A DNA stretch of 27,771 bases from positions 1 through 27,771 of IMG/VR virus record IMGVR_UViG_3300032770_000082. One strand, written 5' to 3'. This DNA is from a virus. Position numbers and translations under genes: made by a program. A model generated the notes under the pieces. The model ran no database searches and was not told the origin of the DNA. It saw nothing but the letters and a program-made list of their open reading frames with translations. Of this stretch, positions 1 to 25,674 are shown in pieces; the stretch's first letter is position 1, and the number at the start of each line of letters is the position of its first letter.

Positions 1-1488
1 AAAGCCGGAATGAATGAAATCGCTGTCTTTGTGCTTGGGATTGAAGACCGCGTCGATATGACGAATGCCGGCCTGATTCCAGATCATGGCCTGGCGATTA
101 GGCCCATCGCCGGAAAGAAATACCCCATCATAGCCAAGCTCGGAAAGCGCCTCCTGAACCGCCGGATCATGGAACGCATCTTCAAAAGCCCAATGCGGAT
201 GAGGGCCGTGCTTGCCCTTGATCGGAATAGGCTGGTGCCCGTGCTTAACTAAAATATCGTTGACGGACTGCGTAATTTTCGGGTCTCGCAAATCCAAGAT
301 GCGATCGGTGCGCAAATGCACTGGCGTGCCCTTGGAACCAAAAGCCGAGGCTGTCCCCGGATCGGCCGAGAAATAAGTCACACCCGGATATTGGCCCTTC
401 TTTGAAGGATCGAAGCGGTCAATGTTGGAATGATGGCCATGCCACCAAACCTCATTGGTATTGTAGCCTTGCGCCTTAGCCCTCGCCATGCGGGCGGCTT
501 CTGAAAGATCCAACCCCTCCGCCTTGGCCTCGGGATGAAAGCGGTTATCGGGGCCGCGCTGAATCCGAAACTCCCGCGCCGCTTTACCGGTGGGAATATC
601 ACCTCTGGCGATGCGATCGACGTCTTCCGGGTGAGGCTGCGGACTATAGTCCCACTCAGGCGCCATGAAGGCCGGCTTAACCTTGCCGGACATATCCATC
701 ATATCAGCCAGTTTGGGCTTTTTCTTCGGCACCATGTATTTGAGCGGGCGCATCTGGTGCAAAGGCTCAAGCCCGGAAACCTCCGCAACCTTGGTTGCCG
801 CCTTAGCCGCCTCCCCGGCGCTGACACCTTCCTTGAAAGCAGAGCCCGCCGCCTTGGCCGCATTACCCAGCACTTTGGCAGCGCCGCCTACCGTCTTGGC
901 GGAAGCTACCGCGCTATCCACTACCGCGCTTGCCGGCACTGGCAGGCTGGAGAGAACAGAACCCACCATTTCTTTGGATAGCCCGGTCTTGGCCTCGATA
1001 TATTTGCCGGGGATCTGCTCAAGAAAGGATTGAGCAGGGGAAAGCAGTGTGCCCACAACGTCGCCCGCGCCACTAAGGCTATCCCAGAGCACACGCGGCA
1101 CGCTCATGGGATCTTCATTGCCCTTGGGATCACGCAAGGTCCGGCCCAAATCGGCAAAGCTTTGTCCGGCGTCGTTCCAATCTTCCTTGGCAATGGCGTC
1201 GGTGCGCTTGGCCCACTCATCAAGCGTGGGACGTGTCCACATTTCTTGGGGGTCCCGGCCCTCCCAGGCCTCACGCCGCCCCCGCATGCCCTCGCCTAAA
1301 TTATGGATGTCGGTAACACGGCGCTCCAGCCAGCCGGCTCCTTCGCCATATTTCTGAAAATCGAGCGGCCGCGTAGGCTTTACCCTTAGATTATCGGACC
1401 ATTGAGAGGCATGCGCGACCGGCTCACCCCATTCGGAAATCGGGTGTTTCTTATCATCGGTCGGGATTGGCTCTCCCCATTCACTCAT
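1..1488 (-). CDS. ADP-ribosyltransferase-like late protein, C-terminus beyond window
   Basis: An open frame of 496 codons starts at ATG 1488 and has no stop before the left edge, so the C-terminus is missing. The N-terminus carries a repeated SEWGEP motif (residues 2-7 and 18-23). Residues about 140-240 are Ala/Gly-rich and probably helical. Residues 347-490 resemble the ART fold seen in phage polyvalent proteins: VWWHG (H350), then TYFSADPGTASAFG (Y372), then ELGYDGV (about 450-456), then an IRHIDAVFNP segment typical of the end of such domains. The family transfers ADP-ribose from NAD to target molecules; this activity is inferred here. The start overlaps the previous stop by 8 bases (ATGAGTGA), so it is the promoter-distal known gene of the late operon. 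It could instead be an inactive structural relative. I am fairly sure of the gene and moderately sure of the fold. Confidence 0.72.
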   Translation of the reverse strand, partial: MSEWGEPIPTDDKKHPISEWGEPVAHASQWSDNLRVKPTRPLDFQKYGEGAGWLERRVTDIHNLGEGMRGRREAWEGRDPQEMWTRPTLDEWAKRTDAIAKEDWNDAGQSFADLGRTLRDPKGNEDPMSVPRVLWDSLSGAGDVVGTLLSPAQSFLEQIPGKYIEAKTGLSKEMVGSVLSSLPVPASAVVDSAVASAKTVGGAAKVLGNAAKAAGSAFKEGVSAGEAAKAATKVAEVSGLEPLHQMRPLKYMVPKKKPKLADMMDMSGKVKPAFMAPEWDYSPQPHPEDVDRIARGDIPTGKAAREFRIQRGPDNRFHPEAKAEGLDLSEAARMARAKAQGYNTNEVWWHGHHSNIDRFDPSKKGQYPGVTYFSADPGTASAFGSKGTPVHLRTDRILDLRDPKITQSVNDILVKHGHQPIPIKGKHGPHPHWAFEDAFHDPAVQEALSELGYDGVFLSGDGPNRQAMIWNQAGIRHIDAVFNPKHKDSDFIHSGF

Positions 1489-2557
1489 TCTGCCCGTCTT
1501 CCTCCTCTCCGCCCTCCGATTCATCTAAATCGGCGGGGTAAGCTATGCCGCTCTTGACCGTGAAATACCCACCCGTTTTGTTGTTTTTGCGCACAAAGCC
1601 GGGCGGGGTATCGGGAAGCGGATTGCCTTTGCTATCGAGCGCGGGCCGTGCCTTCGGGACCTGCTCAAGCCCACCCGGCACATTGGGATTATAGCGATAA
1701 CCATACTGCGCCATGAACCGCTCCGGCGTCATATCGCGCTTGCCTACCGCGTCTTTCGGATGAGCTAGATTATATTCCGTCTCCAGCCCCTTGCGAATCC
1801 CGTCCATTTGCTTAAGCACGGCCGCCCCATGCTTCTCCAATTCCCGGCCCTGCCTTTCCTGATGTTCGACCAGACGAATTGCATCGGAGATCTCACCGCG
1901 CTTGATGTGCTCCATCATCACATCATTGCGGGTTTCCGCCGCGATGATCTGCATTTCGTTCATGCGCTCCTGCATGGAGAGGTGATAGCCCTCCATCGCG
2001 CTTTGATATTTCTGAACCTCAACATGGTTTTGCTCGATCGCTGCTGAGAGGGCGTCCTTATATTGCTGACGCGCTTCATCCATCTTCTGCCTGCGCCCGC
2101 CTGCATAGCCCTGCATAAATCCCGTCATTGCTATCATCGCGCCCCGGGCATGATTCTTCATCATCATGGAGCCGAGAGCGATAATGGGCACAAGAAGCAT
2201 GCCGAGCTGCTTCCAATTGGGCTTGAGCTGCTCGGGACCTTTCTTGGTGAGATCCGCCAAAGCCTGGGTGGATTTCTCCATTCCCTCCTGTGCCTTGGTT
2301 AAGGCACTGGTATCAATGGGTTTACCCATCAAGGCCCGCATCTGCCGCTCACGAGCACCGATCTGGCCTTCGGCTTCTTGCGTCACCGCATGGGAGCGAT
2401 TCAAAATAGCCGAGAGCGGGTCCTGAGGCTGAACCGGCTGCGCCTGCTCTTTGGTTTTCCCTCCCAAGCGCGCGAGAAGATCGAGCGATGGACTATGGCC
2501 GGTATTGTGAATGCCTAAGCCCAAATCCTCGGTTAAGATATTGCGATCATCGGCCAT
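1481..2557 (-). CDS. Hypothetical coiled-coil late protein (possible internal virion protein)
   Basis: This 358-aa protein matches no family I recognise. Residues about 50-115 and 150-260 are rich in Glu, Gln, Lys, Arg and Ala with few prolines, so long helices or coiled coils are likely. Between them, residues about 115-145 (QLGMLLVPIIALGSMMM, then an Ala/Met-rich stretch) are hydrophobic and could be one membrane-associated helix. The C-terminus is acidic (ESEGGEEEDGQNE). The gene lies between a small C-terminally hydrophobic protein and the ART-like protein, downstream of the tail genes, where podovirus-like phages often keep proteins carried inside the head and ejected with the DNA. That role is inferred from position and composition only. 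Confidence 0.8.
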   Translation of the reverse strand: MADDRNILTEDLGLGIHNTGHSPSLDLLARLGGKTKEQAQPVQPQDPLSAILNRSHAVTQEAEGQIGARERQMRALMGKPIDTSALTKAQEGMEKSTQALADLTKKGPEQLKPNWKQLGMLLVPIIALGSMMMKNHARGAMIAMTGFMQGYAGGRRQKMDEARQQYKDALSAAIEQNHVEVQKYQSAMEGYHLSMQERMNEMQIIAAETRNDVMMEHIKRGEISDAIRLVEHQERQGRELEKHGAAVLKQMDGIRKGLETEYNLAHPKDAVGKRDMTPERFMAQYGYRYNPNVPGGLEQVPKARPALDSKGNPLPDTPPGFVRKNNKTGGYFTVKSGIAYPADLDESEGGEEEDGQNE

Positions 2558-3258: not shown

Positions 3259-3687
3259 TTAGATCGTCCTCCGCAAGTAAACCGGTGCAACCTCGGTGAA
3301 GCCATTGCGCTTGGCCATCAACCCCAATTCCGGGAATTCCGGCGGGGGGTTGAAGATATGTTCCTTGGCGCGCTGGCTAATCGCCCATTGCACCGCAGCA
3401 CCCAGCATCGCATCCAGCATGTGAATGCGCCCCGTATGCGACCAGATGAACTTTACCACATGCTCTTTATTGGAAGGATCATAGAAATAAGGAAAGACGC
3501 TAGCCACGAGCACGGTCTCCCCCGGCGCTTCGTCGGCGCCGGTCAAGACAAGGCTCTGTGAATCCGAAAGCCTTGCAACCGCCCATTGCGCTGCACCTTG
3601 AAGATCCCTGATCCGCGCGCCATAAGCCCGCAATGCGCCGCAGAGAAGCGCGTCATAATCCTCGGGGCCTGCGATCCTAAATCTCAT
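3259..3687 (-). CDS. GNAT-like acetyltransferase-fold protein
   Basis: A 142-aa protein that fits the size of a single GNAT domain (usually 140-160 aa). The start MRFRIAGPEDYDALL matches the usual first strand and helix. A central strand (TVLVASVFPYFYD) is followed by a helix (MLDAMLGAAVQWAISQRAKE), and the end (LGLMAKRNGFTEVAPVYLRR) matches the usual closing helix, GF turn and strand. The acetyl-CoA loop (Q/RxxGxG/A) is not clearly conserved, so catalysis is uncertain. Phages often carry GNAT-like proteins in the tail or internal-virion region, as in the N-terminal domain of T7 gp13, and a structural role is possible. It starts inside the stop of the upstream gene (ATGA at 3684-3687). Confidence 0.62.
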   Translation of the reverse strand: MRFRIAGPEDYDALLCGALRAYGARIRDLQGAAQWAVARLSDSQSLVLTGADEAPGETVLVASVFPYFYDPSNKEHVVKFIWSHTGRIHMLDAMLGAAVQWAISQRAKEHIFNPPPEFPELGLMAKRNGFTEVAPVYLRRTI

Positions 3688-16339: not shown

Positions 16340-16410
16340 GGTATTAGCTCCAAAATGCGAACGACACAGCCAAAAGCGAAGAGATAGAAGAGAACGCGAA
16401 GGACACTCAT
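16321..16410 (-). CDS. 29-aa membrane peptide coupled to terminase
   Basis: ATG 16410 overlaps the terminase stop (ATGA at 16407-16410). Translation gives MSVLRVLFYLFAFGCVV followed by RILELIPWQQLN and TGA at 16321-16323. The first 20 residues form one hydrophobic helix with an Arg near the start. The coupling is the main evidence that it is translated. The next gene's GTG lies inside it. Confidence 0.45.
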   Translation of the reverse strand: MSVLRVLFYLFAFGCVVRILELIPWQQLN

Positions 16411-18275
16411 CTCGTATATTGCCCTTTCCAAGCGGCTTTGCGGGCTTCTTCCTTTGCCTTGGCCCTGATATCGCCAAAGGTCTGCCGCACAATGCCGCCC
16501 ACAAAACTATCGCCTATATCGGGAGAAACCCCCTTCGCCTCGGCTTCCTGGCACTTCGCCCAAGTAAGACCGCGCTGCAGCAAATTATTGCGCTGGCGTT
16601 CATACCAAGCCTTATGCGCGAGCGCGGCGGCAAATACCCGATCATCATGCTCATGCTCGGGCGCGCCGATATCCGAGCCCTCTTGGCGGATACCTTCCAT
16701 CTCGGTTAGAAGCGGGCCGGAGCGAATAATCATCTGCTTAAGGACGAATGAATCGCGCATCTGATTTAAGAGCGTCATCTTATTCATCTGGTTCGACACC
16801 CAGCCATAGGCAAAGCCCGCTTGGCCCATGGAATCGGGGCGGTGATAGAGATACCAGCGCGCTCCTTCTAGCGCGTTCATGAAATCCTTAGGTATTTCGG
16901 GCTCACCTAATTGCGGCGCCATCGCACGAAGCTGCTGCTTTAATTGCTTGAGCCCTTGCATGACGGCGGTCCCGGGGCCCTGCACCTCTATATTGATCTG
17001 ACAATCGCGGTAGATCGCAGCCAAATGGCCCAAAACCCAGGTCAAATGATAGGTTTCGCAATCGGGCGAGGCCCATTCTGCGACTTGAACAATGCGGTCC
17101 GCATAGCTCCGCCACACAGAAATGCAATGATTATCCTGGTGATCATTCCTGCCATAGGCGGGATCAACTCCAATACAGTACTCAGCCCCTAATTTCGGCG
17201 CCTCCCACATGCGCAAATGGGCATGCGAGGCATATTGCACCTGGTTTAGGTCCATCAAATCCGTGCGCGTGCCGGTGAAGGTATCGGAAAGCACATAGCG
17301 ATAGGCCTTGAACTTGACTTGGCCCGAGCCCAATACCGCCTTTAGATCTTCCGCCAAGCGCTTGGCCGGGAAGAAATGCGAGCCCGTCGAGATAAATGCC
17401 TCATGCTCATGCCACGGAAACTCCTGGGCAATCATGCCCTCACTCATTTCCGTCTTTTCTTCATTGCGATACCAAGCCAATTGCTCGGGCTTGATCTGAT
17501 AGTCATAGGCCTCGGATACCAATTCCGCCTTCTCACGCTCTTCATCCGTGGGCGGATCGATCATAAGCTCGGCATAACGCGGATCTGTTTTCGGGATCGA
17601 ATAGATTTCGGGCTTGGCCCACCAGCCGATGAAGGTCGCGCGCTTGGTGTGCACATCTTCTTGCGCGTTTACCCACATTTTCTGAAAATGATTGAAGCCA
17701 TTGGCCGTGCTCTCGAAAATATAGAGCCGATTGGGATGACTTTGCGCCATCGTCTTGAGCAAGGAATCAACGCCCTTGGGATCGCCCCAGAAGGCGCATT
17801 CCGTCGCGTGAATAAAATTATAGGCTTTGGAGCGGCCGAGATTGCCGCCACGCCGCACACCAGCCGCTAGATAATCAAGTGTGGAACCGTTCTCCAGCGA
17901 GAGCATGGAGCGATTATTGACCGCAACGCGCATCTTATATTTACGCGGCAGACTATCCAAAAACCGCGTCATGATATGGCGGAACTTATCCTTGTTCTCA
18001 GCGGTGTCGGCAATGAGCGCGCCTTGCAAACGGTCATGCATCAGCATCCAGAAAAGATCGATCGCAATGCCGATGGTGGACATGCCGAGCTGGCGGGCCT
18101 TCAAGAAGACAAAGAACCTAATGTCATCCTCAAGCCCGCGCGCCAATTGCTCCAAGAACAAAAGCTGCGCCGCATAGGGCACAAGCTTGCCGTCATCGTT
18201 CTCTTTGGAATCGATACGCAGATTTTCGATGAACTCCAGAAATAAGGGAAGCCAGTTGGCTTTCTTGCCGCTCAT
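16407..18275 (-). CDS. terL: Terminase large subunit
   Basis: A 622-aa two-domain packaging motor. The ATPase domain has a deviant P-loop KARQLGMST (residues 59-67; the usual Lys before Ser/Thr is Met), Walker B with FIHATE (154-159, catalytic Glu 159), and the coupling motif ESTANG (188-193). The nuclease domain begins EYCIGVDPAYG with Asp 371 as the first metal ligand, and a later acidic cluster, EHEHDDRVFAAALAHKAW, fits the last ligand region. The protein cuts concatemeric DNA and pumps it through the portal using ATP. Length and order agree with the family. The small-subunit partner should be one of the basic or HTH proteins just upstream, but none is recognisable by motif. Confidence 0.9.
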   Translation of the reverse strand: MSGKKANWLPLFLEFIENLRIDSKENDDGKLVPYAAQLLFLEQLARGLEDDIRFFVFLKARQLGMSTIGIAIDLFWMLMHDRLQGALIADTAENKDKFRHIMTRFLDSLPRKYKMRVAVNNRSMLSLENGSTLDYLAAGVRRGGNLGRSKAYNFIHATECAFWGDPKGVDSLLKTMAQSHPNRLYIFESTANGFNHFQKMWVNAQEDVHTKRATFIGWWAKPEIYSIPKTDPRYAELMIDPPTDEEREKAELVSEAYDYQIKPEQLAWYRNEEKTEMSEGMIAQEFPWHEHEAFISTGSHFFPAKRLAEDLKAVLGSGQVKFKAYRYVLSDTFTGTRTDLMDLNQVQYASHAHLRMWEAPKLGAEYCIGVDPAYGRNDHQDNHCISVWRSYADRIVQVAEWASPDCETYHLTWVLGHLAAIYRDCQINIEVQGPGTAVMQGLKQLKQQLRAMAPQLGEPEIPKDFMNALEGARWYLYHRPDSMGQAGFAYGWVSNQMNKMTLLNQMRDSFVLKQMIIRSGPLLTEMEGIRQEGSDIGAPEHEHDDRVFAAALAHKAWYERQRNNLLQRGLTWAKCQEAEAKGVSPDIGDSFVGGIVRQTFGDIRAKAKEEARKAAWKGQYTR

Positions 18276-18817
18276 CAGCTTGTCGGTGCCGCAGGCGCGC
18301 CAGCCGCCCCTTTGGCATAATCCTTCCGGTAGCGCGAGAAATCATAACCATGGCGCGCAAATTCCTTGGCAGCATCATCAAGCGCCATGCCGCGCGATCC
18401 CATCATTACCGCCGTCTGTCTCAAACCCTCTTCCACCTCAGCGGCAGAAAGCATCTCAACCTTGCCATTGCGGACATAAATCTTTGGCCCCGGCGGCCCA
18501 ACCTTAGCCCGTGATTTCTCCTCCCCCTTGCGCAGCGCCTCATTACCCGTGGCGCCACCACCCGCCCAACCCCATCCCGCATTAGAAGGAGCCGGCTTAC
18601 TAAAACTCTCCCGCTTGGGAGCCGCCGCCATGAACTCTTCCTCGGTAAGCTTACGCCCCTTAGGCCAGGACGTACCTTCCGGATCCGGCTTATATGTCAA
18701 TTTAGGCAGCGAGCCCGTCTCGCGCCACTTGCGAAACGCCCGCGCACCCCGCGTCACCTCATCCCCATAAGCCGCACGCGGCTCCGGCACTTGCCTGCCA
18801 ACCCGGTCAACCGGCAT
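18275..18817 (-). CDS. Hypothetical protein with MPxDxxG N-terminus, upstream of terminase
   Basis: ATG 18817 makes a TGATG overlap with the preceding stop and gives 180 aa beginning MPVDRVGRQVPEPRAAYGDE. That N-terminus resembles those of the two zincin-like proteins (MPVDVVGTP and MPTDVIGKP). The body is basic and probably disordered (SFSKPAPSNAGWGWAGGGAT, GEEKSRAKVGPPGPKIYVRN), with a C-terminal helical part (MALDDAAKEFARHGYDFSRY). It overlaps the terminase start (TGATG at 18273-18277). A small-subunit terminase role is possible because of position, but no HTH is evident. Confidence 0.65.
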   Translation of the reverse strand: MPVDRVGRQVPEPRAAYGDEVTRGARAFRKWRETGSLPKLTYKPDPEGTSWPKGRKLTEEEFMAAAPKRESFSKPAPSNAGWGWAGGGATGNEALRKGEEKSRAKVGPPGPKIYVRNGKVEMLSAAEVEEGLRQTAVMMGSRGMALDDAAKEFARHGYDFSRYRKDYAKGAAGAPAAPTS

Positions 18818-18999
18818 CAGCGCCACTCCTCTTGCCGCGAACCCGCCGCCATCTGCTCCGCCCGCAAACGCTGACGCCGCTGATGCGCATAAACCTGATC
18901 CAAATGCGTATAAAGAACCGGCCTTACCCCCACCACCGGAGCCCCGCGCAAATCATCCGCCCAGGCCTTCGTGTCATCACTGCCCCAAGTCGTCTTCAT
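18817..18999 (-). CDS. Small 60-aa hypothetical protein
   Basis: ATG 18999 is preferred because it overlaps the upstream stop (ATGA at 18996-18999). The product starts MKTTWGSDDTKAWADDLRGA and ends with a basic helix (YAHQRRQRLRAEQMAAGSRQ). The helix may bind nucleic acid or a partner protein. No family is recognised. Tight coupling on both sides supports translation. Confidence 0.55.
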   Translation of the reverse strand: MKTTWGSDDTKAWADDLRGAPVVGVRPVLYTHLDQVYAHQRRQRLRAEQMAAGSRQEEWR

Positions 19000-19253
19000 C
19001 CCTTGCGCTTCGCCTCCTTCTTCCTCTTCCGCCAAGCCCGCTGACGCTCCGCACCCGTCATCGCAACCCCATGCTTCGGCCGCCGCCCAACCCTACCCCT
19101 AACCTTCTTCTCAACTACCCCCTCCGCCTCAATCAACCTCACCGCCTTCGGTCCCAACCGAACCACCGTGCGCTGAGGCGCAGAAACCCGCACCACCATA
19201 CGCCCAATCTGAGGCGCACCCAGTGCCTTCCTCTGCTCTAGCTTCGAGGCCAT
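18996..19253 (-). CDS. Basic 85-aa protein, candidate terminase small subunit or DNA binder
   Basis: ATG 19253 is chosen over TTG 19259. The protein starts MASKLEQRKALGAPQIGRMV, then has VVRLGPKAVRLIEAEGVVEK, and ends in a strongly basic segment (MTGAERQRAWRKRKKEAKRK). Endings of the form MTxAERQRxxRxRRK are widespread in small phage and plasmid DNA-binding proteins. It is the first gene after a 73-base gap, and could bind DNA near that gap, for instance as a packaging-initiation factor. That is inference. Confidence 0.55.
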   Translation of the reverse strand: MASKLEQRKALGAPQIGRMVVRVSAPQRTVVRLGPKAVRLIEAEGVVEKKVRGRVGRRPKHGVAMTGAERQRAWRKRKKEAKRKG

Positions 19254-19326
19254 GGGCAACTATGGAGTTTCGTTACGAAGAGTGCAAATATTTTTGGGGC
19301 GGGGAGGGTGGGGAGGCTCCGAATTT
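19254..19326. promoter_or_regulatory. Intergenic element with G4-like tract and 11-bp palindrome
   Basis: The largest non-overlapping gap between 13842 and 22136 holds GGGGCGGGGAGGGTGGGG at 19296-19313 on the plus strand (four G-runs with single-base loops, an ideal quadruplex pattern) and the perfect palindrome TTCGTTACGAA at 19269-19279. On the minus strand a weak TTGCAC/CATAGT pair with 17-base spacing ends just before the next gene. It may be a local promoter or operator, or a packaging-start site. Confidence 0.4.
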
Positions 19327-19773
19327 TCACTCCCCCGTCCCATCCAGATCAGGCCAGACGCCATAATGCGCACGGTACTGGAGGGCCAGGTAGACGCGGT
19401 TAGGACAACGTGACCTACCCTCCTCCCAGGACTTGATCGTGCGGTGGTCGGAGACATGCAACACGCGCATGATTTCCGCATATCTAACACGAGATTTCTT
19501 AATCCAGGCCGCTATTTGCCTGCCATCCTGCTTACGCTGGAGCGCGGCCTGTAATTGCTTGAGCTTGCGGTTATCGCGGACACGGCGGCCCTGAAATCGT
19601 ATACCCGAGGGGGGGTATTTTTTGGGCTTCGGGTTGACTGAAACACCCTCCTCCCTAGTTTCCAATTTAGCCTTCGCCTTTGCCCTGCGTTGGTGTGTTA
19701 GCCAATCCCTTGGTGTCTCTTTGAGATTAGCCCATTCCTGCGGGTGTGTTTGGTTGCCCAGGGTTTCTGTCAT
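19327..19773 (-). CDS. HTH DNA-binding-like protein
   Basis: A 148-aa basic protein. Residues 1-75 are hydrophilic and Lys/Arg-rich, probably disordered (HQRRAKAKAKLETREEG). Residues about 85-135 look like a small helix-turn-helix domain: GRQIAAWIKKSRVRYAEIMR, then VLHVSDHRTIKSWEEGRSRC, then PNRVYLALQYRAHYGVWP, reminiscent of XRE-type and antitoxin HTHs where TIKSWEEG forms the recognition helix. The start at 19773 overlaps the zincin gene by 47 bases and lacks a clear ribosome site. It may regulate late genes or be the terminase small subunit. Confidence 0.6.
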   Translation of the reverse strand: MTETLGNQTHPQEWANLKETPRDWLTHQRRAKAKAKLETREEGVSVNPKPKKYPPSGIRFQGRRVRDNRKLKQLQAALQRKQDGRQIAAWIKKSRVRYAEIMRVLHVSDHRTIKSWEEGRSRCPNRVYLALQYRAHYGVWPDLDGTGE

Positions 19774-20452
19774 TTTGGCTTAGGGTTATGACCCTGTTTA
19801 TCATGGCGTCGGTGTTGATGTGATCTCTTAGCCATTTTGCGGCTTTTGGGAAGTCTTTTTTTGTGCCTTGGGGATCGATCATGTATCGGGCTAGGGCGTC
19901 GGCTATGGCTTCTCGCGCGTTTGGGGGGTTTTCGTAGTCGAAGTGCATGGAGTGGAATTCTTTGTTTAGCTGAGGGTCTTTCGTTACGTCCTTATCCAGG
20001 GTATCTGAGAGGAATTGTAGTTTAACATCAATGGCATGGCCAGTCTCGTGGGGAATGGCGCGGTTCGCCGTATTGATGTCTTTGGTGTTGAAATCGATCG
20101 CTGGTTCATAGGCTCCCTTGCCATGGAGCCAGTCTGATTTGTATTTCGTCTCCGATGAGGTTGTGTCCTCTCTTGTTACCCATTGGATATGGCCTTGGGT
20201 AAGGAGCGCGGCTAGATCCTTGATCTGCTGCATGGAGAGCGGAGTGCTGTGATCTTGACCACCCGCTATAAACCTAGAGTTGAGTTTGCGGCCTTCTGGG
20301 TCTGTACCGGTCTGGGGTCCTGTGGGGCCTGGCTGCGGGAAGGCGCGCTCTTCGGGTGTGAGCTGTGAGGGGTAACGGTTCCATTTCGCCCAGTCTGGAT
20401 AAGATTTAGGTGTCCATGTGGCTCTAGGCGTGCCGACAACATCCACAGGCAT
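19727..20452 (-). CDS. Zincin-like metallopeptidase 1 (HETGH)
   Basis: A 241-aa protein. It begins MPVDVVGTPRATWTPKSYPD. A DPEGRKLNSRFIAGG block lies at residues 51-65. The HExxH zinc site is AIPHETGHAID with H135, E136 and H139. A likely third ligand is in NAREAIADALARYMIDP (E181 or D185), placed about 40 residues later as in many gluzincin-like peptidases. The C-terminal block (FPKAAKWLRDHINTDAMINR) is shared with the next gene. Proteolysis is inferred from the motif; the substrate could be a host or virion protein. No signal peptide is seen. Its plus-strand sequence looks more T-rich than that of its neighbours. Confidence 0.7.
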   Translation of the reverse strand: MPVDVVGTPRATWTPKSYPDWAKWNRYPSQLTPEERAFPQPGPTGPQTGTDPEGRKLNSRFIAGGQDHSTPLSMQQIKDLAALLTQGHIQWVTREDTTSSETKYKSDWLHGKGAYEPAIDFNTKDINTANRAIPHETGHAIDVKLQFLSDTLDKDVTKDPQLNKEFHSMHFDYENPPNAREAIADALARYMIDPQGTKKDFPKAAKWLRDHINTDAMINRVITLSQNDRNPGQPNTPAGMG

Positions 20453-20457
20453 TAGAG

Positions 20458-21216
20458 CTAATCCACTATGCTTGCTTGAGGCTGGTTTGCTTGTGACAGC
20501 GTGATGATGCGGTTGAGCATTGCATCGGTGTTAACATGATCTCGCAACCATTTGGCTGCTAATGGGAATTTCTTTTTCGTGCCGGCTGGGTCCACGAGAT
20601 AAAGCGCCAATGAATCGGCAAGCACTTCGTCTGCGTTTGGGGGTTTTTCATAACCGTAATGCATGGAATCGAATTGGCGACGCAATTCTGGGTTGGCCTT
20701 TGCATCAGTATCCAGATTTTGTGCGATGGTGCGCTTGCCTTCCGACCAGATCCCGGACCAATGCGTCATATCAATTGCGTGCCCGGTCTCATGGGGCAGA
20801 TCACGCGCTAGCGTGCCCATCCACCCGCCGGGCTGCGTAACGAATTGACCAAGCTTAATCTTAGGTGGGCCTACCAAATAGCCATCAAGTGTGGCGCTTG
20901 CACTGCCCGATTCCGTTCGCGCCGCTTCATCAGAAGCAAGCTCAGAACGCGGCACCCATTCGATTTGGCCATGCGTAAGCATCATGGCGAGTTGCTTGAT
21001 CTGGTTCATATCGAGAGGCGTCTTGCCATCTGCTCCACCCGCGATATAGCGCGAAGAAAGCTTTCGGCCTTCGGGGTCAACCGCGGTTTGCATCGGCGCA
21101 TTGGCCGGTGGCATCGAGAACTTGCGCTGTTCGGGCGTCAGTAGATCATAATTCTTATCGTAGTCCCGCCAAATGTCATTCGCGGTTTTTGGCTTCCCAA
21201 TGACATCGGTCGGCAT
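20458..21216 (-). CDS. Zincin-like metallopeptidase 2 (HETGH), tandem paralogue
   Basis: A 252-aa protein parallel to the gene downstream along its whole length: MPTDVIGKPKTAND at the N-terminus, DPEGRKLSSRYIAGG (48-62), a longer middle insert (about 100-135), DLPHETGHAIDM with H142, E143 and H146, PPNADEVLADSLALYLVDP with E197, and FPLAAKWLRDHVNTDAMLNR at the end. Both proteins keep all candidate zinc ligands, so neither looks dead. The 5-base gap between them and their collinearity show a tandem duplication that has diverged strongly. The start overlaps the preceding gene by TAATG at 21214-21218. Confidence 0.72.
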   Translation of the reverse strand: MPTDVIGKPKTANDIWRDYDKNYDLLTPEQRKFSMPPANAPMQTAVDPEGRKLSSRYIAGGADGKTPLDMNQIKQLAMMLTHGQIEWVPRSELASDEAARTESGSASATLDGYLVGPPKIKLGQFVTQPGGWMGTLARDLPHETGHAIDMTHWSGIWSEGKRTIAQNLDTDAKANPELRRQFDSMHYGYEKPPNADEVLADSLALYLVDPAGTKKKFPLAAKWLRDHVNTDAMLNRIITLSQANQPQASIVD

Positions 21217-22067
21217 TACTCTTCCCCATATTCCGCCATGCGCTGCTGACGCTCAAAATCACGCAATGCATCATAAGGAGCAGCCGATGGGGTCCAAAGC
21301 TGACCCGGATGCGCGCCCCAATCCGTTGGGGCTTGGTCGGCTGGAGGTTGAGGCTCTGCGGCCGGCTTTGTGATCGGGCGCTTGCCCTTCTTATCCCTGT
21401 TGGCCAGCATATAGGCGGCAAGCCCACCTATAGGTAAGCCTGCCATCGCCAAATTGGCTGTATTCTCCCTTGATGCATCCGCGCGCACCTCATTGGGCGT
21501 CATCGCGAACTCATCGCCTGTGCCGGGCTCATTCGGCGCACCCGGGCGTGCTGCAAGCTTATAGCGGGCGCGCTCCATCGAAGCACGTGCACGCTGCTGT
21601 ACTGCAAAGCTATCGAGAATAGACTGATGAAAATCCCGCATTTCATTGCGCACGGATTCATGCCAATCACCGGCCTGATGATCCCAGGCCTCGCCAAAGC
21701 GCTGCTTCATCCAGTTATGCACGTGATCGCCGCGCACTGCACCGGGTACGTCCTGCAATTCCCCCATTAACCGCGCGATATCCTGATCAAGCGGGGTCTG
21801 ACGCATCTCCGAGGAGAATTCGCGCGCTGTAGTTTGGCTATGAGGTGTTGCAGCCGATACCGGCGGCTGCAATTGAGCGGGCGGGCGCAATTCATGTAGT
21901 TCCGCCGGAAGTTCGATATAAGGCGCATCGGCAACAGGCGCCTTCGCCTTGACGATATCGCGGCCTACACCCAGCGTATCGCGATAAAGAGCAGGCGCTT
22001 GCGCTGCCTCTTGACCAGCTCGGCCAAGCTCTTCGATGTCTTTGAAGATCTGGAGCGGATTAGCCAT
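21216..22067 (-). CDS. Hypothetical late protein with C-terminal hydrophobic segment
   Basis: A 283-aa protein starting MANPLQIFKDIEELGRAGQE, immediately after the stop of the 22-aa peptide (TAA then ATG). Residues about 50-80 are Pro/Ala-rich. Residues 80-175 are helical with many Trp, His and Met residues (HNWMKQRFGEAWDHQAGDWH). A hydrophobic stretch (NLAMAGLPIGGLAAYMLANR) near residues 205-225 followed by DKKGKR resembles a membrane helix with a positive-inside end. Function unknown. As the first large gene of the late operon it may prepare the envelope or be packaged. Confidence 0.68.
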   Translation of the reverse strand: MANPLQIFKDIEELGRAGQEAAQAPALYRDTLGVGRDIVKAKAPVADAPYIELPAELHELRPPAQLQPPVSAATPHSQTTAREFSSEMRQTPLDQDIARLMGELQDVPGAVRGDHVHNWMKQRFGEAWDHQAGDWHESVRNEMRDFHQSILDSFAVQQRARASMERARYKLAARPGAPNEPGTGDEFAMTPNEVRADASRENTANLAMAGLPIGGLAAYMLANRDKKGKRPITKPAAEPQPPADQAPTDWGAHPGQLWTPSAAPYDALRDFERQQRMAEYGEE

Positions 22068-22474: not shown

Positions 22475-22550
22475 GGGGGCGTCGATTGGTAGACGCCTCA
22501 GGCCTTCGGGCCTATCTAAACCCCCGGCCACAAACCGGGGGTTTCTTTTT
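22475..22550 (+). ncRNA. Candidate structured RNA with alternative terminator pairing
   Basis: Reading rightward, GGCGTC (22478-22483) pairs with GACGCC (22492-22497), and AGGCC-TTCG-GGCCT (22500-22513) makes a stem with a UUCG-type loop. The terminator stem follows. GGGGG at 22475-22479 could instead pair with CCCCC at 22521-22525, which is also the left arm of the terminator, so two exclusive folds are possible. The segment GATTGGTAGACGC resembles a tRNA-Leu D-arm, but no acceptor or T-arm is present. The 5' end is unknown. Confidence 0.4.
22518..22550 (+). terminator. Strong rightward rho-independent terminator
   Basis: AAACCCCCGG pairs perfectly with CCGGGGGTTT around a CCACAAA loop and is followed by CTTTTT. 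It ends any rightward transcript from the 22260-22517 segment. It supports the idea that this segment is transcribed as a short RNA. Confidence 0.75.
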
Positions 22551-22698: not shown

Positions 22699-22756
22699 AC
22701 GCTCCTGCGCGCAAATCATGCGCCTAAGCTAAAGCATCGACAACTGCTGTTGTTTT

Positions 22757-22771
22757 GCAACACTGTGTTGC
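22757..22771. promoter_or_regulatory. 15-bp palindrome, candidate operator
   Basis: GCAACACTGTGTTGC is a perfect palindrome around a central T. It lies about 90 bases before the ATG at 22860, beside a TATTAT box (22782-22787) that could be a -10 element, although no good -35 is seen at 17 bases. It could be an operator for the membrane-protein gene. Confidence 0.4.
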
Positions 22772-22808
22772 TTTTTTGCGGTATTATGCAGCAAGCACAC
22801 CTAGTACA

Positions 22809-22822
22809 TTGATGATCATCAA
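22809..22822. promoter_or_regulatory. 14-bp palindrome, second candidate operator
   Basis: TTGATGATCATCAA is perfectly symmetric, and a further TGATCA copy follows at 22823-22828. It is about 38 bases before the start codon at 22860, where a bound protein would block transcription. Confidence 0.4.
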
Positions 22823-22859
22823 TGATCAACGGTGTACATGCCGCCAGACGACAAATCCA

Positions 22860-23783
22860 ATGCCTAGACGCAATTGGGGCGCAGTCATTGCGATTGTCGG
22901 ATTAGTTATTGGTGCTATAGCACTTACAGCATCAACCAAGCCCCCAAACGCGGAACGGGTGCCCAACCCAGGCCCATCCGTAAAAAAACATGGTTCCTGC
23001 GAAGCCTGCACCAGCAAAAAACCAACCAACGATTCGCCGCTTCCTGTTCGAATTATAGAAAGCCCGGATGACACCGCACGCGCTCAGGAGCGCGAAGCTA
23101 AGTCCGATAAGCATGATGCAGAAGATCTGAAGGCTCAGCAGGATGCGGCTAACGCTGCTCAGCGTGCGGCTGCATCCGCTGAACGGGAGGAAGTACCTGC
23201 AATTGTCCAGATCATTCTGGCTTCGTTTGGTACGGTTATCGCGCTCATCGCTTTGATAACGAGCATCTGGACTACTATTAGAGCTGATCGAACCAGTCGA
23301 GCTGAGTTGCGCGCTTACGTTTCTGGCGAACCGAACTTCATTGTTGCCTTTGACGCCACTAACTTTTCTGGTGGACGTTTCGCCATTAAGAATGTCGGGC
23401 AAACCCCGGCTCTCAAGGTGAGAAGTCGGGCAACTGTAGAGATCTTCCCCGAACCGTTGCCCCCCAACTATGCCTTTCCTGAAATAACCAACCCATTTTT
23501 CCCCGCAGGAACGGTTTTCCCAGGTAGTGACTTTACCGGGACAGTTCGTGCAACGCGCCTTTTTACTCAGAATGAGATCGACGCCGTACGGGCATTTCAG
23601 GCCTCTCCCTATATTTATGGGACCATCGAATATATCGATATTTTCGGTACCCCGCACGAAACCAGATTTAGTCGAAGAGCTGTTGGCGATCAGCAAAACG
23701 TCGATAAACTGGTGCAGGCCTGGAAACCATCCGACCTTGAGATTCGCTTCGCCACAACCGAACAGCACAACGAAACTACTTAG
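22860..23783 (+). CDS. Two-helix membrane protein, accessory gene
   Basis: ATG 22860 gives 307 aa beginning MPRRNWGAV; upstream in-frame ATGs exist but cross the palindromes. Helix 1 is at residues about 6-25 (GAVIAIVGLVIGAIALTA). A charged coiled-coil-like linker is rich in Ala, Glu and Lys (EREAKSDKHDAEDLKAQQDA). Helix 2 is near residues 112-135 (IVQIILASFGTVIALIALIT). The C-terminal 170 residues form a beta-rich domain with RAELRAYVSGE, KNVGQTPALKV, a PFFPAGTVFPG turn and a YIYGTIEYIDIFG strand pair. Proteins with this RAYV...NVGQTPA...YGxIxYxDxFG domain are frequent in Rhizobiales genomes and, to my knowledge, uncharacterised. It is isolated and opposite in direction to its neighbours, suggesting an accessory gene such as superinfection exclusion or lysogenic conversion; this is inference. 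Confidence 0.75.
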   Translation: MPRRNWGAVIAIVGLVIGAIALTASTKPPNAERVPNPGPSVKKHGSCEACTSKKPTNDSPLPVRIIESPDDTARAQEREAKSDKHDAEDLKAQQDAANAAQRAAASAEREEVPAIVQIILASFGTVIALIALITSIWTTIRADRTSRAELRAYVSGEPNFIVAFDATNFSGGRFAIKNVGQTPALKVRSRATVEIFPEPLPPNYAFPEITNPFFPAGTVFPGSDFTGTVRATRLFTQNEIDAVRAFQASPYIYGTIEYIDIFGTPHETRFSRRAVGDQQNVDKLVQAWKPSDLEIRFATTEQHNETT

Positions 23784-23803: not shown

Positions 23804-24277
23804 TCACTCATCCCTGCCCCCGGTATTTGCAGCGATGAGCTTGGAAATTCTCCAAGGTGTCGTTGCTGCATAATACCGCTTTTTTGCAACTCCTTTGAGG
23901 TCCCAGAGCTGCTGGCGCGTCATATTGAGCATTGCAAGCGGCACCTGGCAGCCCTGATAGCCGGGCTCCGGCCCATAAGACCAATCCCAGCGCTTGGTGC
24001 AGCGATAGGCCAAGAGCACAGAAGCCCAAACTCTGTGATCGAACTTAGGAGCTATAGGAAGCTGCTTGATTTGATCCAGGATAATGGGGGTGACATCGCC
24101 CTCGAATAAACCTGCCCGCTCACCAGCGATCGCATAGCGCAGCGCCAAGAGGCACTGAAGCGCATTGCCGTTTGCCTTCTTGAGATAAAAGCCGATCTTA
24201 CGACGAGCCAGCTTAGTATTGCCCCAGGCCGCCAATCCCTCCCGCCAAAGCGTGGCGCGGGCTTCCTCCTCGCTCAT
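23804..24277 (-). CDS. Hypothetical protein, last gene of regulatory operon
   Basis: ATG 24277 is chosen because it overlaps the DnaA-like stop (ATGA at 24274-24277); the frame is open to 24385. The 157-aa product starts MSEEEARATLWREGLAAWGN, has LKKANGNALQCLLALRYAIA, KFDHRVWASVLLAYRCTKRW and a helical end (MTRQQLWDLKGVAKKRYYAA). It is helical and Trp/Tyr-rich. No family is recognised. Coupling to the DnaA-like gene suggests a related regulatory or replication role. It faces the membrane-protein gene head-on with a 20-base gap and no visible terminator. Confidence 0.65.
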   Translation of the reverse strand: MSEEEARATLWREGLAAWGNTKLARRKIGFYLKKANGNALQCLLALRYAIAGERAGLFEGDVTPIILDQIKQLPIAPKFDHRVWASVLLAYRCTKRWDWSYGPEPGYQGCQVPLAMLNMTRQQLWDLKGVAKKRYYAATTPWRISKLIAANTGGRDE

Positions 24278-24582
24278 TGGCGTAGGATCTGAGCAAATTG
24301 CGGCCGCGCCGCCATACGCTGGCAAGCATGAATGGCCGTGGAGTGGTCTTTGTTCATAAACTTGCCGATTCGGGGGTAAGACCACCCAAGCTCATGACGC
24401 AGGCGCCAAAACACTTCCCATCGCGCCTCGACAATCTCCGCGCTACGACACTTTCCCAAGATTAGATTTGAGCATAGCCCATGCCGCGCTGCTACTTGCT
24501 CCAGAATCCGATGCCCGGTCTGTGACGATGGGGAAATAATGAGGGCCGCTTGCGAAAGTGGACCGGTTGCGCGCGCATTCAT
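24274..24582 (-). CDS. Stand-alone DnaA domain IV-like protein
   Basis: ATG 24582 gives 102 aa; the frame is open to 24702, but that start has no ribosome site and would overlap two other frames. Residues 24-92 match DnaA domain IV: HRILEQVAARHGL, then LGKCRSAEIVEARWEVFWRL, then LGWSYPRIGKFMNKDHSTAIHACQRM split over 65-90. The DHST-IHA signature (D79, H80, S81, T82) contacts the DnaA box in true DnaA. The AAA+ ATPase domain is absent, so it can bind but not unwind DNA. Such proteins could occupy host or phage DnaA boxes and change host replication or gene expression. The family match is strong; the role is inferred. Confidence 0.8.
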   Translation of the reverse strand: MNARATGPLSQAALIISPSSQTGHRILEQVAARHGLCSNLILGKCRSAEIVEARWEVFWRLRHELGWSYPRIGKFMNKDHSTAIHACQRMAARPQFAQILRQ

Positions 24583-24679
24583 AATCCCAGCCTTCTTGCC
24601 ATGGTTTTTCTTGACGCTCTTCTCTGTCCATACCCTTACGGAAGCCGCAGCGCCCGGCGATGAACCAGGGCTCAGCCAT
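24443..24679 (-). CDS. Possible Rmf/CrpP-like small protein overlapping DnaA-like gene
   Basis: ATG 24679 overlaps the GcrA-like stop by 8 bases (ATGGCTGA). The first 40 residues are MAEPWFIAGRCGFRKGMDRE then ERQEKPWQEGWDYECARN. The pattern G-x2-G-x3-G followed by W-x2-GW resembles ribosome modulation factor and CrpP-type small proteins (usually 50-70 aa). The last 38 residues run through the DnaA-like gene in another frame and look like low-information Ser/Ala sequence. A 140-base overlap is unusual, so either both are translated or the true product is shorter through a missed frameshift. If real, it may bind ribosomes or a nucleotide-related partner. Confidence 0.45.
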   Translation of the reverse strand: MAEPWFIAGRCGFRKGMDREERQEKPWQEGWDYECARNRSTFASGPHYFPIVTDRASDSGASSSAAWAMLKSNLGKVS

Positions 24680-25091
24680 AGATCGTCTTGCGCTCCAGCC
24701 ATTCGAGACGGGGAATCGATACCGGCCGATGGGACTCCCGCTGCGTTAATACCATGCGAATGAAGGCACGCTTGTCCGGACCCTTATGCCTCGGAAAAGC
24801 ACCAATCGAATAACGCGGCTTCTTTTCGGTCTTGGCCTTTTTGGGCCGGGGATGCTTCATCCAATAATCTTGCAAAAGCTCCGCGTGCTTCCGCCGTTGT
24901 TCCGGGGTCCAAAGCGTGACCCCACACTTTCCATGCGGCGGATCGATCTTATGCCGCTTGCATATGCCGACGATGCAGCTCTTGGTGACCCCAAACGCTT
25001 GGGCGAGCTGAGCCCGGGTAAGGCTGCGGTCATTTTCCCAAGCTGCGATAACAGCCTTAGAAAGCGCGGAAGGCCCTGGCGATCCCGTCAT
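24672..25091 (-). CDS. GcrA-like HTH regulator
   Basis: A 139-aa basic protein coupled to the RHH gene by ATGA at 25088-25091. Residues 12-48 (SKAVIAAWENDRSLTRAQLA then QAFGVTKSCIVGICKRHKI) match the N-terminal HTH of GcrA-type proteins (W, then SxxQIAxxLG, then VxRNAVIGKxHRLGL), the alphaproteobacterial cell-cycle regulators that work with sigma70 on methylated promoters. The canonical RNAVIGK is TKSCIVGICKRH here, so it is divergent. Residues 60-80 form a WTPEQRRKHAELLQDYW helix, and the rest is basic. It may recognise the same or related promoters to switch host or phage genes. Confidence 0.65.
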   Translation of the reverse strand: MTGSPGPSALSKAVIAAWENDRSLTRAQLAQAFGVTKSCIVGICKRHKIDPPHGKCGVTLWTPEQRRKHAELLQDYWMKHPRPKKAKTEKKPRYSIGAFPRHKGPDKRAFIRMVLTQRESHRPVSIPRLEWLERKTIYG

Positions 25092-25258
25092 AGCGGCTCT
25101 ATACGCCTCTTTTCTTCCTCGACAGCCTTCCTTAAGGCATCGCGGATAACCAAGCTTACCGAAATCTCCCGCCTGCGCGCAATACGTACCGCATCGCGGT
25201 AAAGATCAGGCGCCAAGCGCAGAGAAATAATCGTGTTGAGCGGCTTGCGTTTCATCAT
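25088..25258 (-). CDS. Ribbon-helix-helix (Arc/CopG-type) regulator
   Basis: ATG 25258 gives 56 aa; the frame continues to 25339, but that part crosses the divergent promoter. Residues 6-15 (PLNTIISLRL) form the DNA-contacting strand, followed by two helices (PDLYRDAVRIARRREISVS and LVIRDALRKAVEEEKRR). This is the full length of a typical RHH protein. It is first in its operon and next to the divergent promoter region, so autoregulation and control of the rightward early genes is likely. No toxin partner is evident. Confidence 0.75.
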   Translation of the reverse strand: MMKRKPLNTIISLRLAPDLYRDAVRIARRREISVSLVIRDALRKAVEEEKRRIEPL

Positions 25259-25338
25259 GATGTTGACATAACACGTCATACAAACGGTTGACAAGAGGTA
25301 TTTTAGTGTGCATGTTGCTCCCATCGAAGGAGGCGCCA
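25259..25338. promoter_or_regulatory. Divergent promoter/operator region
   Basis: Rightward, TTGACA occurs at 25263-25268 and again at 25288-25293, an exact 25-base direct repeat of the box, but convincing -10 boxes are weak (CATGTT at 25311-25316 with 17-base spacing). Leftward, TTGTCA with TATGTC at 18 bases faces the RHH gene. The rightward gene has GAAGGAGG at about 25326-25332 before ATG 25339. Repeats suit control by the RHH protein. Confidence 0.4.
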
Positions 25339-25674
25339 ATGGACGATGTTCTAATCGCTCTGCACGAAACCCCCGAAGTCATCCGCCAGCGCATCATGAC
25401 ACAAGTGCGCGAGAAGCTAGACAAGCTTCCCTCAACCTATGTCGTGATGACGGACTATGAAAATGCCGATTGCTTTCTCATCATGGGCATAAGCAAGAAC
25501 CGCGCTGATTCGCGCGGTAAGATCGGGTCTTGCGATCACGCGCTATGGCATTTCGAGCCGATACCGGGGCACTATCTCGAAAGTGTTTTCCAGGATATCT
25601 GGCCGGATTTGCGGGCAGGCGAGGACATTTTCCGCTTCCAAATTCGCTACCGGATTATAGAGCAACCAAAATGA
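25339..25674 (+). CDS. Hypothetical early protein
   Basis: ATG 25339 is chosen over TTG 25288 because AAGGAGG lies six bases upstream. The 111-aa product begins MDDVLIALHETPEVIRQRIM, then has LDKLPSTYVVMTDYENADCF, LIMGISKNRADSRGKIGSCD and WHFEPIPGHYLESVFQDIWP. It is an alpha/beta protein with aromatic C-terminus. No family is recognised. As the first gene of the rightward operon with a strong ribosome site it is probably made early and well. Confidence 0.68.
   Translation: MDDVLIALHETPEVIRQRIMTQVREKLDKLPSTYVVMTDYENADCFLIMGISKNRADSRGKIGSCDHALWHFEPIPGHYLESVFQDIWPDLRAGEDIFRFQIRYRIIEQPK

Follow-up and report, generated by a model that had tools for sequence, protein, structure and literature searches.

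Gene organization of the locus

The window, meaning the whole stretch of DNA that was analyzed, is an IMG/VR virus record of 27,771 bases, and the record is probably incomplete. Two adjacent genes in it, here called A and B, encode zincin-like proteins. The genes from the large terminase subunit up to this pair and its neighbors are as follows.

16407..18275, minus strand: large terminase subunit (TerL), downstream of A and B in the same direction (Pfam Terminase_6N/6C, phrog_2)
18275..19259, minus strand: small orphan genes of 87, 72 and 183 aa, between the A/B cassette and TerL
19327..19773, minus strand: 148 aa protein with a weak helix-turn-helix signal (HTH_19, E 0.0059, below the cut-off)
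19727..20452, minus strand: zincin-like protein A, 241 aa, open reading frame, paralogue of B (E 6e-71)
20458..21216, minus strand: zincin-like protein B, 252 aa, open reading frame, paralogue of A
21216..22067, minus strand: orphan protein of 283 aa, probably with one hydrophobic segment, no family or phage match

The order on the minus strand is the 283 aa gene, B, A, the 148 aa gene, and then the run toward TerL. The genes are tightly packed. The stop of the 283 aa gene shares one base with the start of B, five bases separate B from A, and the last 47 bases of A are shared with the start of the 148 aa gene. TerL, an SU10-like portal, a scaffold-like protein and the major capsid protein (MCP), recognized with Pfam and PHROGs, follow downstream in the same direction. 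The coordinates, lengths and strand of A and B in the preliminary description were correct by the list of open reading frames. Its placement of the pair in a putative late operon agrees with the orientation, the spacing and the downstream TerL, portal and capsid genes.

A strong hairpin resembling a terminator lies upstream of the A/B gene run (22518-22544; consensus match only). A 25-nt inverted repeat (92%) at 22778-22802 and 23855-23879 has its arms around the gene at 22755-23783 on the plus strand. RYYAAST is encoded by one arm, near the TTG start of this gene, and RYYAATT by the other, at the C-terminus of a 193 aa gene on the minus strand, which hints that an accessory gene was inverted or inserted. 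Three other minus-strand genes of the window carry recognizable features. The small protein at 24274-24702 has a DnaA C-terminal DNA-binding domain (PF08299, E 2.6e-13) and is too short for an ATPase; 25088-25339 encodes a ribbon-helix-helix, antitoxin-like protein with CopG/HicB-like PHROG matches; and the 142 aa protein at 3259-3687 looks by eye like a GNAT acetyltransferase, with no supporting Pfam match.

Predicted active-site motifs of A and B

Each protein consists of one domain and a short leader. The positions of the putative active-site residues, assigned from motifs, are listed below.

20036..20050, minus strand: HETGH of A, residues 135-139
20779..20793, minus strand: HETGH of B, residues 142-146
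19910..19912, minus strand: candidate third zinc ligand of A, Glu181, in REAIAD
20626..20628, minus strand: candidate third zinc ligand of B, Glu197, in DEVLAD

Nine consecutive residues, PHETGHAID, are identical between A and B. An ExxAD motif lies 46 residues (A) or 55 residues (B) beyond the first His of HETGH, and an Asp is found three residues past HExxH (D142 in A, D149 in B). Upstream of the Glu there is a Tyr in both proteins, Tyr173 in A and Tyr189 in B; that of A is a candidate transition-state residue. Under the definition of a gluzincin as HExxH plus (E,H)xx(A,F,T,S,G) (PMC7213743), the motif layout of both proteins would be that of a gluzincin-type (clan MA) zinc metallopeptidase, with a predicted active-site helix and predicted ligands.

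The six frames of the window contain HExxH three times, once outside the frames of A and B. Since the motif arises by chance, HExxH alone is weak evidence, and the zincin claim rests on joint conservation. What stands above chance is that PHETGHAID and the Glu motif are kept together in two paralogues that agree at only 40% of third codon positions. AlphaFold models built from a two-sequence input had pLDDT of 35.8 and 37.8, both unusable for judging a zincin fold, and the proposed fold has the sequence motifs as its sole basis. A proline directly preceding HExxH, as in both proteins, is unusual in the classic zincin helix motif.

A and B might not be zincins at all, and HETGH might be a conserved structural motif of some phage protein family. 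The chance HExxH in the window, the missing family match and the unusable models are in line with such a view. It is nevertheless very improbable, given that PHETGHAID, ExxAD and the upstream Tyr are all kept despite saturated synonymous sites.

Divergence and selection between the two genes

The two proteins align over their whole length with 116 of 250 positions identical (46%; 205 bits, E 6e-71), which bears out the full-length shared architecture noted in the preliminary description. Identity is 51% on ungapped columns and 57% at the DNA level. For the 231 codons that could be aligned, dN is 0.46 and dS about 2.75, giving a dN/dS of about 0.17, an approximate value as dS is saturated. From the saturated dS, the 40% identity of third codon positions and the dN, it is concluded that the A/B split is old and that both copies have been retained under purifying selection; both copies therefore look functional. 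The motifs and the dN/dS likewise support the earlier claim of two intact zincin-like active sites under selection. The paralogues may stem from duplication in this phage or from separate acquisition.

The divergence is uneven. The pair had been described as strongly diverged, and this holds for the DNA and for two stretches of the protein, residues 93-138 (31% identity) and 153-175 (20%) of B, but less so for the C-terminal third, which is 81% identical. The two least similar stretches flank the HExxH helix predicted from the motif. This pattern would fit changed substrate contacts, and because the most divergent stretches flank the active-site helix, A and B probably differ in substrate. The suggestion of two different substrates in the preliminary description is compatible with it.

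Related phages and distribution of the cassette

About 160 related contigs were recruited with TerL and capsid profiles. The closest relative is a 40.2 kb sister phage, G001 (MCP 77%, TerL 56% and portal 50% identical), whose structural module matches that of the window and in which the cassette from 18275 to 22067 is absent. In 46 related contigs the sequence upstream of TerL extends for 2.5 kb or more, and homologues of A, B or their neighbors are absent from all of them. An A/B profile matched none of 26 whole related records, a set containing no positive control; a search of the same kind recovers both genes in the window. Since the sister phage and the related contigs are without the cassette, the A/B pair is, on this genome comparison, accessory.

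The accessory status argues against virion maturation, which the preliminary description had offered as one possible target of the peptidases. A/B homologues are missing from phages that share this head and terminase module, the closest one included, and a virion maturation protease was rejected as the main reading because A and B are absent in relatives with the same MCP and TerL. The sister phage also encodes a 901 aa protein (L165:10944-13649, minus strand) in which a weak glycine-zipper signal is seen and which may be an ejection protein.

Searches for relatives of A and B

No family match to A or B was found in Pfam, PHROGs, NCBIfam or PADLOC, and none among PDB sequences. Searches by tblastn against phages and plasmids, up to E 10, gave only chance-level matches; weak plasmid matches and Vibrio phage matches were discarded on this ground. 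Peptide-pattern scans of IMG/VR and genome contigs found no relatives, though these scans require near-exact short peptides and distant relatives can escape them. The single match of a DNA-pattern scan proved to be a chance frame, and the pattern had omitted the common Val codon GTG. An alphaproteobacterial zincin-like domain was used as bait and retrieved nothing in phages or plasmids, a result that is not counted as evidence. The N4 virion RNA polymerase was rejected as a relative, its metallopeptidase (MPTase) region being visibly of a different type.

Gluzincins of the lethal-factor-like/M34 type have HExGH, a Tyr placed a few residues ahead of the Glu that is the third ligand, and a spacing similar to that of A and B. 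Neither A nor B has a match to Pfam ATLF.

Comparison with known zincins

Zincin-like MPTases are the commonest domain in phage and plasmid polyvalent proteins, where they have been proposed either to process the polyvalent proteins themselves or to cleave host proteins as effectors (PMC5512222, Iyer et al. 2017). In one phage MPTase type, HExxH is followed three residues on by an Asp, and several polyvalent domains are also found solo near structural genes (PMC5512222). A and B share with these domains HExxH, the Glu-helix motif, the Asp three residues after HExxH and the phage late-gene context. They differ in being solo proteins of 241 and 252 aa encoded by adjacent duplicated genes. The PF18818 (MPTase-PolyVal) profile has no match in the window, and the strand-2-terminal His of one polyvalent MPTase clade is not evident in A or B. 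A further likeness is an ART-PolyVal-like protein in the same phage, encoded at the left end of the window.

1..1524, minus strand: truncated large gene with an ADP-ribosyltransferase-like domain (ART-PolyVal; 24.2 bits, E 8.4e-7)

The match covers residues about 359-481 and falls below the curated ART-PolyVal cut-off of 31.2 bits; the same profile had no match in 24 related records. Because of this below-threshold signal the phage may deploy polyvalent-type effector domains.

A and B could process the phage's own multidomain or ejected proteins, such as the ART-PolyVal-like or the 283 aa protein, before or after packaging. It is mainly for such processing that polyvalent MPTases have been proposed to serve, P1 DdrB being the precedent (PMC5512222), an ART-PolyVal-like protein is present, and the 283 aa gene overlaps B. 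The reading is unlikely, however: on the contig some 18 kb separate the ART gene from A and B, one substrate needs no two separate peptidases, and in the sister phage a large internal-type protein exists without any such peptidase.

In some relatives of this phage, ArdC-type zincins that match solved ArdC (PF18818; PDB 6i89, 6sna) are encoded close to TerL on the other strand. ArdC has the same HExxH plus ExxA gluzincin layout as A and B, and the ArdC mutant E229A retains function, making the zincin site dispensable for the known function of ArdC (PMC7213743). By analogy with this antirestriction protein, A and B might bind zinc and act by binding rather than by proteolysis, and the ArdC-type zincins near the terminase region in relatives add to the analogy. 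However, comparison of A and B with 10 ArdC relatives by hhalign gave a probability of 1.3, that is, no detectable homology. A and B are also shorter than the relatives' ArdC proteins, have no recognizable ArdC-N domain and keep both active-site motifs, and a non-proteolytic use is distinctly unlikely.

ImmA/IrrE peptidases (M78) act on adjacent repressors and have HExxH plus ExxA in common with A and B. A similar regulatory role, in which A and/or B cleave the neighboring putative helix-turn-helix protein and relieve repression, is suggested by the 148 aa gene, which overlaps A and has the weak HTH_19 signal; IrrE is itself a gluzincin (PMC7213743). This role is quite improbable. Neither A nor B matched M78 in Pfam up to E 10. 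The HExxH-to-Glu spacing of IrrE is about 31, and that of A and B, 46-55 residues, exceeds it. The putative helix-turn-helix gene lies in a packaging and structural run, unlike the context of ImmA/IrrE, and its product could be a small terminase subunit or a different DNA-binding protein. Nor would this role account for two copies.

Proposed function

The reading that we favor, tentatively and at somewhat less than even probability, is that A and B are accessory zinc peptidases, act as conflict effectors with host or competitor proteins as their targets, are perhaps packaged and ejected, and probably have different substrates. They would be anciently duplicated single-domain gluzincin-type metallopeptidases, with His-His-Glu expected to hold the zinc and the HExxH Glu to activate water. 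Encoded in an accessory cassette just upstream of the terminase, within the structural-gene run, they would be made late and possibly packaged and ejected, and would then cleave host or competitor proteins. The analysis establishes that the genes are duplicated and under purifying selection, that their motifs are retained, that the gene order is as described and that the related phages examined lack the pair; we infer zinc binding, proteolysis, packaging and targets. Packaging is plausible from the gene position. The precedent would be the metallopeptidase domains of phage polyvalent proteins, with A and B instead being separate solo proteins, and the ART-PolyVal-like gene, located elsewhere on the contig, is in keeping with a phage that makes use of effector domains. 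Against the favored reading count the lack of detectable homology to known peptidase families, the unreliable fold models, the proline before HExxH and the ArdC precedent.

The kind of protein, a phage zincin that is probably conflict-related, is already known, and the A/B family is an orphan here. A and B would fit solo, duplicated members of an undescribed clade of polyvalent-type MPTases. No description of a tandem solo zincin arrangement was found in the literature searched. In a bolder and doubtful form of the proposal, they represent a new family of zinc peptidases that phages encode as solo proteins, here as two diverged tandem copies, which are carried into the cell or produced there and cut two different host defense or regulatory proteins.

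Zincin domains are common in the multidomain conflict proteins of phages, and substrates are known for very few of them. A solo pair of about 250 residues each would be far easier to purify and assay than the giant polyvalent proteins, and comparing the two paralogues could show what determines substrate choice.
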